The notes under the pieces are model-generated. The model had not been told where the DNA came from. It searched no databases and saw only the letters and a program-made list of their open reading frames with translations. Source: Glutamicibacter soli (GTDB lineage: Bacteria > Actinomycetota > Actinomycetes > Actinomycetales > Micrococcaceae). From it: 64,000 bases of DNA. The position numbers and the translations under genes were made by a program. The stretch is taken from contig NZ_POAF01000003.1 of the NCBI RefSeq assembly GCF_003309065.1, forward strand, positions 124,001-188,000, read 5' to 3'. Positions 2,804 to 7,417 of this stretch are shown here, piece by piece (positions within the stretch are counted from its first letter, which is position 1; the number at the start of each line of letters is the position of its first letter).

Positions 2804-3247
2804 ATGCAAGAAGAACAGCTGATGCAAAAGGTGGAAGACGAATTCACCGCCCTGTTGTTTCGTGCGCGCCAGATGCTGGTTCGCCGCGCCAAAATCATCC
2901 ATCCTGAACTCCAGGACCAGGGTTACCGGCTTCTCGCAGTCGTCATCCGCGAAGACGCCCAGCAGCAGGGTGTGCTCGCCGAAAAGCTCCGCCTCGACAA
3001 GGCCACAGTGTCGCGGTTAGTGCAGCACCTGCAGTCCATCGGGCTGGTCTCCCGGGTTCCGGATCCGCGGGACGGCCGGGCTCAGCTGGTCTCCGCCACC
3101 GATGAGGCCCGCGAGAAATGGAGTTCCAGTGGCGACATGCTGCGCCAGCAATTACGAAACCACCTCAGCGACTGGAACCACGACGATCTGGAAGAATTCG
3201 GCATTCTCATGCACCGGCTCAACTCGACCTTTGACGACATCGTGTAG
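2804..3247 (+). CDS. MarR-family transcriptional regulator
   Basis: Winged-helix DNA-binding protein of 147 residues, the normal MarR length. The recognition helix region is around residues 55-75 (LAEKLRLDKATVSRLVQHL) and is followed by the wing motif DPRDGRAQLV at 87-96, typical of MarR proteins. Such proteins bind as dimers to palindromes in nearby promoters and release DNA when they bind phenolic compounds or are oxidised. The neighbouring divergent kinase gene and its own promoter are the likeliest targets. A strong shared terminator separates it from the convergent helicase gene. The inducer is unknown. Confidence 0.88.
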   Translation: MQEEQLMQKVEDEFTALLFRARQMLVRRAKIIHPELQDQGYRLLAVVIREDAQQQGVLAEKLRLDKATVSRLVQHLQSIGLVSRVPDPRDGRAQLVSATDEAREKWSSSGDMLRQQLRNHLSDWNHDDLEEFGILMHRLNSTFDDIV

Positions 3248-6568: not shown

Positions 6569-6710
6569 AACTTCTCGGGTAGGAGGCCGCGCCGTAACTG
6601 CGCGGAGTTCGTGATCAATTCTATCGACGCAATGGACAGTTCTTCCTGTGACGAAACATGAAGAAAGCTATTTACCAACCACGAAGAAACCCGGTAGAAA
6701 AGTAACTACT

Positions 6711-6833
6711 GAATCACGAGTTCCAATCACACAAGCCCTGGCTGGTTGGACGGCAACCCTATTCGCGTCATTGTGCGGGGTGCTCCAGGTGATGATTCGA
6801 CGGATCTGAAAGACAGGTTCGTAAGCGATGGCG
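6711..6833 (+). ncRNA. SAM-IV riboswitch (S-adenosylmethionine aptamer)
   Basis: The conserved landmarks of the actinobacterial SAM-IV aptamer occur in order: TCACGAG, CAAGCCCTGGCTGG, GGCAACCCT, GGGGTGCTCCAGGTGATGA, a short hairpin (about 6802-6820), then GTAAGCG. The outer P1 helix can form between GAATCA (6711-6716) and TGATTC (6793-6798). The order and spacing match what I recall of SAM-IV RNAs upstream of sulfur genes in mycobacteria and streptomycetes. It sits in the 297-bp gap between the SNF2 gene and the OsmC gene and is oriented toward OsmC. Recognition is by eye, and a covariance-model search would settle it. Confidence 0.85.
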
Positions 6834-6854
6834 CCCCTTTGCGCCAGAAAGGGG
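6830..6854 (+). promoter_or_regulatory. Riboswitch expression platform: ribosome-site hairpin switch
   Basis: Two mutually exclusive hairpins overlap. GGCGC (6830-6834) can pair with GCGCC (6841-6845). Alternatively CCCCTTT (6834-6840) can pair with AAAGGGG (6848-6854), which is the ribosome-binding site of the OsmC gene. The second pairing would hide the ribosome site. This is the layout expected for translational control by the SAM aptamer just upstream. Which state SAM favours cannot be read directly. Confidence 0.6.
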
Positions 6855-6865
6855 ATTATTTCCTC

Positions 6866-7417
6866 ATGTCTACCGCAGCTTCCACCCTTTCCGTTGCCGA
6901 AGATCGTTCAGCCCGCCTACAGCAGGCCGGCACCGGCTGGGGAGAACGCATCTCCGCTGCTCCGGACAGCGCCAAACTGACCTTCACCGTTCAGGGCGAG
7001 GGCTTCGGCTCGGTGGCCAGCAACATCGTTTCGGGCCAACACACCTTTACCGTCGACGAGCCAGCTGCTCTGGGCGGCGACGATCTGGCAGCGAGCCCGG
7101 TCGAATACGCGCTGGGCGCATTGATCTCCTGCCAGGTCGTTGTCTACCGTCTTTATGCAGAGCAGCTGAACATCCAGGTCGACGACGTGAAGATCGTGGC
7201 CAACGGAAACCTGGACGTGCGCGGCCTGTTCGGCATCGACAAGTCGATCCGCCCCGGCTTCACCTCGGTGGATCTCGATGTGCAGATCACCGGCCCGGAA
7301 ACCGCTGAGCGCTACGACGAATTGCGCCAGGCAGTCGACGCCCACTGCCCGGTTCTGGATCTGTTCGCCAATCCGGTGCCGGTGAGCACAAAGATCTCGC
7401 TGGTTTCCAACAACTAG
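6866..7417 (+). CDS. OsmC/Ohr-family protein
   Basis: OsmC-fold protein of 183 residues from the ATG at 6866. That start is preceded by AAAGGGG at 6848-6854. The upstream codons of the longer reading frame lie inside the riboswitch and are not used. The two redox cysteines of the family are present: C89 in LGALISCQ and C161 in AHCPVLD. Family members reduce organic or lipid hydroperoxides with thiols. The SAM-IV riboswitch in the leader suggests that this member belongs to sulfur or methionine metabolism rather than general peroxide defence, and some OsmC proteins do act on sulfur compounds. The exact substrate is unknown. A strong terminator follows, so it is probably monocistronic. Confidence 0.88.
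   Translation: MSTAASTLSVAEDRSARLQQAGTGWGERISAAPDSAKLTFTVQGEGFGSVASNIVSGQHTFTVDEPAALGGDDLAASPVEYALGALISCQVVVYRLYAEQLNIQVDDVKIVANGNLDVRGLFGIDKSIRPGFTSVDLDVQITGPETAERYDELRQAVDAHCPVLDLFANPVPVSTKISLVSNN

Follow-up and report, generated by a model that had tools for sequence, protein, structure and literature searches.

Why should a gene of the OsmC family stand directly behind a SAM-IV riboswitch in the genome of Glutamicibacter soli, how might the riboswitch act on it, and what would its product do when sulfur or SAM runs short? SAM-IV is described as regulating metXY in Actinomycetales, and the available part of that account does not mention OsmC (PMC4239095). We studied the locus in a stretch of 64,000 nt (the window, to which all positions refer), in which the SAM-IV element was the sole RNA to reach the gathering level in an Rfam scan.

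The SAM-IV leader and its gene

The aptamer, the parts of it used below and the gene are placed as follows.

6712-6833, + strand: SAM-IV riboswitch aptamer (RF00634 match and covariation in 28 leaders)
6712-6715/6794-6797, + strand: P1, placed by the SAM-IV model
6737-6741/6785-6789, + strand: PK-1, placed by the SAM-IV model
6766-6773, + strand: PK-2 5' strand CGTCATTG, located in the loop of P3 and able to pair with 6826-6833, two of the pairs being G-U
6826-6833, + strand: PK-2 3' strand CGATGGCG, sharing 6829-6833 with the anti-sequestor hairpin (its 5' arm)
6866-7417, + strand: osmC, encoding an OsmC-family protein of 183 aa with Cys89 and Cys161 (PF02566, 62.3 bits, cut-off 27.5)

An earlier note, made from the letters of the sequence, had recognised both a SAM-IV leader and an OsmC-family gene here, and the Pfam score above agrees with it on the gene. 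On the leader it was borne out by a match to RF00634 over the full length of the model (positions 1-116 of 116) at 69.3 bits, E 3.3e-10, with a gathering score of 38. The aptamer ends 32 nt short of the osmC ATG (6866). The closest solved structure to the protein is 2opl_A, and its score against the NCBIfam model OsmC_like_Se (NF041052), 72.3 bits, is below the curated cut-off of 95.

Covariation was followed in an alignment of 28 distinct leaders (27, to which L110 was added), which are kin and hence not 28 independent trials. In the aptamer 95.7% of cells are paired and 14 of 38 pairs have changed on both sides, among them 5/7 in P2a, 2/2 in P2b, 1/6 in P3 and 5/8 in P5, and none of 500 shuffles equalled the real set on any of five measures. 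PK-1 is paired in 100% of cells and PK-2 in 91.7% over six counted pairs, the changes in PK-2 being one-sided or breaks only; ATGGCG within its 3' strand is invariant in 28/28 leaders. Covariation in P1, which the earlier note had named as a check, spoke neither for nor against the assignment: P1 is AATC/GATT in 28/28 leaders and does not covary within the group, so that the check is uninformative there, and the pairs that do covary are those of P2a, P2b, P3 and P5. Compared with the Rfam consensus ggUC/GAcc, two of the four P1 pairs differ on both sides. In every feature open to sequence testing the element is a member of the SAM-IV class, from which we infer that it binds SAM.

SAM-IV was present in 100/100 family genomes, the window's own included, and OsmC relatives (E <=1e-10) were found in 30 of the 100; 20 of these, again with the window's own, are close (>=59% identity). 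The note had proposed to compare the leaders of OsmC orthologues, and SAM-IV proved to lie directly upstream of osmC in 17 of the 20 close loci, which rules out chance adjacency of aptamer and gene. The close loci without it are L052 and the two from Yaniella, L044 and L048 (the same as L096 and L113). SAM-IV was found in none of ten distant OsmC loci of the family genomes.

In a survey of named genomes, covering the best 80 of 164 OsmC relatives, a SAM-IV pattern stood upstream in 21, from Glutamicibacter, Arthrobacter, Paenarthrobacter, Paeniglutamicibacter and one genome labelled Sporosarcina. Rfam confirmed 17/17 of the pattern-positive loci submitted; the remaining four (L069, L070, L085 and L109) are identical with L039, L040, L042 and L047, already Rfam-confirmed. 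Among the 59 pattern-negative loci no SAM riboswitch appeared in the nine scanned with Rfam (seven, with L096 and L113), the other 50 being negative by the pattern alone. The nearest named OsmC proteins, 77-93% identical, come from seven loci, four of Glutamicibacter and three of Arthrobacter sp. For the groups of the relatives we use the names Micrococcaceae, Microbacteriaceae and Micrococcales, which we take to be the appropriate ones. As a minor observation, the SAM-IV osmC leader of L112, labelled Sporosarcina beigongshangi, is Arthrobacter-like, possibly because of a wrong label or contamination.

Like the SAM-IV leaders of metY in this genome and across the family, the osmC leaders have the full aptamer and both pseudoknots. 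They differ in the target gene and in forming a lower-scoring SAM-IV subgroup (66.7-85 bits, against about 93-125 bits for the best hits of the family genomes). They also differ in the PK-2 3' strand, which is GTAAGTATGGCG or GTAARCGATGGCG in osmC leaders (GTAAGCAATGGCG in L068) and GCAAGCGCGG in most other SAM-IV leaders compared. The aptamer class is a known one, and for SAM control of osmC Pelagibacter, with its SAM-V element, offers a precedent. There, according to the available part of the report, osmC likewise lies behind a SAM riboswitch, described as covering the ribosome site, and is raised in sulfur limitation; in contrast to the present case the aptamer is unrelated to SAM-IV, osmC adjoins bhmT, and the gene is also up in control stationary phase (PMC5069961). 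The SAM-IV/osmC pairing itself was not found in the available portions of the literature searched (including PMC2704228, PMC4448311 and PMC5069961, the SAM-IV discovery paper being outside this scope), and OsmC goes unmentioned in the main text of a regulon survey (PMC3766115).

A further likeness was seen at L066, where a gene for a distant OsmC paralogue follows immediately on a SAM-I riboswitch (RF00162, 49 bits, cut-off 44.4, at 1363-1445 in the region 1363-1452), its ATG coming 7 nt after the element. Both the OsmC subgroup and the aptamer class differ from those of the window, and it is one of ten distant loci examined. A wider search for this paralogue gave one of 119 genomes at E 1e-30 (L153), and as L153 has no SAM riboswitch the convergence of SAM-I and OsmC rests on one locus. 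A SAM-I element beside L059 lies downstream of the osmC gene there, outside the leader, and was therefore left uncounted.

The upstream repeat and the role of OsmC

Upstream of the aptamer we placed a putative promoter and, before it, a short repeat.

6648-6663, + strand: putative operator of two 10-bp-phased units, GTGACG-AAAC-ATGAAG, 5' of the -35 (GTGACGAAACATGAAG)
6671-6676, + strand: putative -35, TTTACC, placed by eye
6695-6700, + strand: putative -10, TAGAAA, placed by eye, with an 18-nt spacer and a transcription start presumed near 6707

A -10 of TAGAAA or TAAAAA can be seen by eye in most Glutamicibacter-group loci; a sigma-70 consensus scan found no promoter at the putative -35 and -10. 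The repeat scored 7.2 with a weight matrix trained on SAM-IV-free osmC loci, between the 95th (6.4) and the 99th (7.4) percentile of controls. It belongs to a motif that was spotted by eye in loci later counted, which makes the first count post hoc: among the 59 osmC loci free of the SAM-IV pattern, units of the form [GAT]T[GT][AT]CG recur in 10-bp phase at least twice in 43 and at least three times in 13, compared with 1.4% and 0.02% of control windows from the same loci (n=5663). Other unit spacings, from 7 to 14, were reached in 2-10 of the 59. GTKACG-type repeats occur upstream of osmC in the SAM-IV-free loci L074-L146 and upstream of metY in L154-L183.

Further loci were then scored with the matrix. 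A metY relative was present in 38/38 genomes searched, and in the 30 metY loci examined a phased array precedes the gene in 14 by the strict unit and in 29 by a matrix score above the 95th percentile of controls, which came from the family loci, hence from other genomes, and may differ in base composition. Of the osmC genes with SAM-IV, 21/28 scored above the 95th and 12/28 above the 99th percentile of 3780 control windows, the best position falling 59-71 nt 5' of the aptamer in 24/28. The 95th percentile was exceeded by 6/35 of the SAM-IV leaders that belong to metY or to other genes. The phased repeat was also seen before an ABC transporter gene in two genomes (L199 and L205); the gene after it in L205 resembles the SsuA family at 115.8 bits, below the cut-off of 163.5, and that of L199 is alike by eye. 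Of two pattern searches with backward controls, one gave 6 hits against 14 in the backward control (13 of the 14 from one genome), the other 22 against 14, with 11 of the 22 before metY-like genes, osmC or the ABC operon. An operator-promoter pattern derived from osmC had osmC as its sole hit in 4/5 genomes of the genus Glutamicibacter, with 3 backward control hits, and its metY-like version had hits in 0/5 of these genomes. Separately, one genome of the same genus (G075) has neither an osmC match at E 1e-10 nor the operator-promoter pattern, as if both were absent together.

Because the repeat is like those before sulfur genes of related genera, sulfur probably controls the gene at two levels. 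It seems that in Micrococcaceae osmC receives a sulfur signal at the promoter, through the putative operator, with the SAM riboswitch on top. A broader reading, which we put forward tentatively and at somewhat less than even chances, would make osmC a core gene of a sulfur-shortage regulon in Micrococcales, governed by a regulator that would read the 10-bp-phased GTKACG repeats of osmC, metY and uptake genes of sulfonate type, with the SAM-IV element of Micrococcaceae and its PK-2 strand exchange overlaid. If it is true, three SAM riboswitch classes (SAM-IV, SAM-V in Pelagibacter and SAM-I at L066) have been placed before OsmC genes, and such convergence would point to a peroxide or reactive-sulfur hazard at low SAM.

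Cys89 and Cys161 are invariant in 20 orthologues. Two kept cysteines are expected of a thiol peroxidase in the OsmC/Ohr family, and this activity is predicted here. In sulfur-limited exponential cells of Pelagibacter, osmC, downstream of SAM-V, rose 50-fold in mRNA and 4.5-fold in protein; as its mRNA was also up about 41-fold in control stationary cells, sulfur is not the only signal behind the induction, and in stationary phase sulfur-limited cells had less of the mRNA than controls (0.23), as given in the available part of that study (PMC5069961). Sulfur starvation of Pseudomonas aeruginosa likewise brings an Ohr-type peroxidase into the response, with ohr mRNA up >40-fold, lsfA >45-fold and the Ohr protein about 2-fold, in an account whose available part mentions no riboswitch, unlike osmC here (PMC12581299). 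From the kept cysteines and the induction in these two organisms, peroxide or related redox defence during shortage of sulfur or SAM is the likeliest role of OsmC by analogy. The comparison of leaders and upstream regions suggests that the enzyme is part of the sulfur-shortage response in these soil bacteria.

The SAM control had suggested to the earlier note a specialised role in sulfur metabolism. The link to sulfur metabolism gained support, as other SAM-IV elements of the genome precede a metY-like gene (L001, the gene being named by resemblance to the scored relative L154) and a flavin reductase gene (L002), and the phased repeat precedes both osmC and metY; a peroxidase made in sulfur shortage would fit as well as the specialised role. 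OsmC could be specific to sulfur acquisition, beyond general peroxide defence, with substrates such as the peroxy, persulfide or organosulfur intermediates that arise when sulfonates are used. The repeat before metY and the SsuA-family ABC operon, together with the flavin reductase gene among the SAM-IV targets, would agree with this. We nevertheless think it unlikely, at perhaps one chance in a few, since crude ORF calls showed no conserved sulfur genes near osmC, both cysteines are retained, which is the pattern of thiol peroxidases, and peroxidases rise in sulfur starvation without a demonstrated sulfur-specific job (available part of PMC12581299). Redox defence in sulfur shortage remains the preferred role, and it would move this OsmC-type protein from osmotic or peroxide stress toward sulfur homeostasis, on the evidence of two unlike regulatory signals. 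The need for OsmC in SAM-short cells can now be tested directly in soil bacteria.

In the neighbour survey neither an operon nor conserved neighbours of osmC, sulfur genes included, were seen in 80 loci with crude ORF calls; the largest clustered frames were on the minus strand in 32 loci, mostly across osmC. A MarR-type gene, judged by resemblance, lies upstream of osmC in 10/80 loci, with an SNF2 helicase near it in 8. The window has a MarR-type regulator gene at 2804-3247, beyond a helicase, which resembles the gene upstream of osmC in those 10 loci.

The predicted switch at the Shine-Dalgarno site

Between the aptamer and the start codon lie the elements through which the riboswitch could act.

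6829-6846, + strand: anti-sequestor hairpin TGGCGC (6829-6834)/GCGCCA (6841-6846), from an inverted-repeat search
6834-6854, + strand: sequestor hairpin CCCCTTT (6834-6840)/AAAGGGG (6848-6854), from the same search, masking the Shine-Dalgarno site
6850-6854, + strand: Shine-Dalgarno site (SD) AGGGG, 11 nt 5' of the ATG, inside the sequestor
6851-6865, + strand: third possible hairpin GGGGA (6851-6855)/TCCTC (6861-6865), over the SD and adjoining the ATG, from a predicted fold

The note had described two mutually exclusive hairpins, an arm of one masking the ribosome site. Both came back from the inverted-repeat search, they exclude each other because C6834 is common to them and each loop holds part of the other, and the SD does lie inside the sequestor. 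The model in the note lacked the coupling to the aptamer: the PK-2 3' strand doubles as the anti-sequestor's first (5') arm, an overlap that, like the aptamer, the hairpins, the SD position and the conservation of the unit, is read from sequence and comparison. Since the two use the same bases, PK-2 excludes the anti-sequestor, and the anti-sequestor in turn excludes the SD sequestor.

When the stretch of the window from PK-2 to the SD was dinucleotide-shuffled 300 times, a hairpin as strong as the anti-sequestor was rare (p 0.00) and one as strong as the sequestor was not (p 0.10). That the hairpins go beyond chance follows from their conservation over the 28 leaders and from the set-wide shuffled control of SD opening cost given below. 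In the MAFFT alignment of 28 leaders 90.4% of cells retain the anti-sequestor, which is re-formed in L045 (GCGGG/CCCGC) and L112 (GCGGGCG/TGCCCGC), both misplaced by the alignment; its covariation is not above shuffles, 152 of 500 reaching its percentage paired and 86 of 500 its covariation score. A sequestor of the type CCC(C)TT/AAGGG(G) is found in nine Glutamicibacter-group leaders, the version of L115 being rich in G-U pairs. The other 19 leaders have a different stem of 4-6 pairs at or beside the SD in 17 cases (CGTG/CACG, CCTG/CAGG and similar) and no stem in 2. The stem beside the SD is paired in 70.2% of cells, gaps in the alignment taking out part of them; 0/500 shuffles reach its cells paired or its covariation score, and 146/500 reach its three doubly changed pairs.

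Holding PK-2 raised the modelled cost of opening the SD by >0.5 kcal/mol in 23, 22 and 20 of the 28 leaders for RNAs extending 0, 13 and 27 nt beyond the ATG; a fall of the same size was seen in 1, 1 and 0. At 13 nt the mean change over the set was +1.71 kcal/mol, compared with +0.33 in shuffles (the sd of replicate means was 0.21 and the highest of 60 was 0.86). Six of the 28 leaders had no clear predicted effect, L045, L046, L049, L055 and L056 being within 0.5 of zero and L110 at -0.69. For the window RNA the cost went from 6.3 to 10.7, from 7.5 to 8.8 and from 8.0 to 8.8 kcal/mol at the three lengths, an effect with p 0.15 against 60 shuffles. The energy lost when PK-2 blocks the anti-sequestor was not above controls (5.6 vs 5.3 kcal/mol). 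In probabilities, the SD became less often unpaired with PK-2 held in 18/28 leaders and more often in 7/28; in the window the value was 0.145 free and 0.151 with PK-2 held. It hardly shifts there because the third hairpin can also cover the SD. That hairpin was seen in the PK-2-blocked fold of L037 and also in folds of L040, L072 and L115, and in the model it may hold expression down whichever state the RNA is in. The OFF/ON model of alternative pairings therefore stands in part: over the set of leaders the modelled rise in opening cost with PK-2 held exceeds that of shuffled controls, and for the window alone, with its nearly unchanged SD unpaired probability, the modelled switching effect is weak.

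The SAM response and switching that we infer would run as follows. When SAM is plentiful, the SAM-bound aptamer would hold PK-2 closed and so engage 6826-6833; TGGCGC/GCGCCA could then not form, and with the anti-sequestor absent CCCCTTT would pair with AAAGGGG and hide the SD. When SAM is scarce, the anti-sequestor would outcompete PK-2, the SD would be easier to open and OsmC would be made. Cryo-EM of the isolated SAM-IV RNA indicated that base pairing is not disrupted by SAM binding (PMC6890682, available part). We consider it fairly likely that the locus combines, jointly, a translational SAM-IV OFF switch on an apparently monocistronic osmC, a promoter layer of sulfur control and a thiol peroxidase for sulfur or methionine shortage. 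It would be a compact and conserved translational switch, the coupling element of which, the PK-2 strand exchange, can be read in the sequence.

It could also be that the riboswitch is inherited and adds little, the upstream repeat and its putative protein being the main control. The 43/59 SAM-IV-pattern-free loci that keep at least two phased units would accord with this, as would the weak modelled switching in some leaders; the strong constraint on the aptamer in 28 leaders and a PK-2-to-SD stretch organised beyond shuffles over the set argue against it, and we rate it as quite improbable. Least likely of all is that the aptamer acts on transcription, by the hairpin at 6834-6854 as a terminator or by SAM exposing a Rho site. 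A scan does list CCCCTTT...AAAGGGG followed by ATTATTTCCT as terminator-like, but the 1 kb scanned held two such sites where shuffles would give 1.2, Glutamicibacter relatives (ATCAATTCC, ATGATTCC, ATCGTCCCC) have not preserved the T-rich tail, which by eye is absent from the other leaders examined as well, and the hairpin holds the SD, so that an intrinsic terminator was rejected on the T run and the number of sites. Translational control by the SAM-IV leader is the reading that we prefer.

Other SAM-IV elements of the genome

The genome of 3.84 Mb has six SAM-IV matches, five of them above the cut-off, the osmC leader being L005. In L004 an element of 74.7 bits precedes the gene of a 186-aa protein (L004:890-1447, - strand) with no Pfam or NCBIfam match. 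In L003 the element (1501-1614, 75.8 bits) stands before an ORF of about 88 aa, and in L006 a SAM-IV-like element (1501-1620, 36.4 bits, below the cut-off) before one of about 98 aa, both ORFs having no Pfam match; the elements of L003 and L006 have GGTGGNTCGGATGANGAAGC in common.
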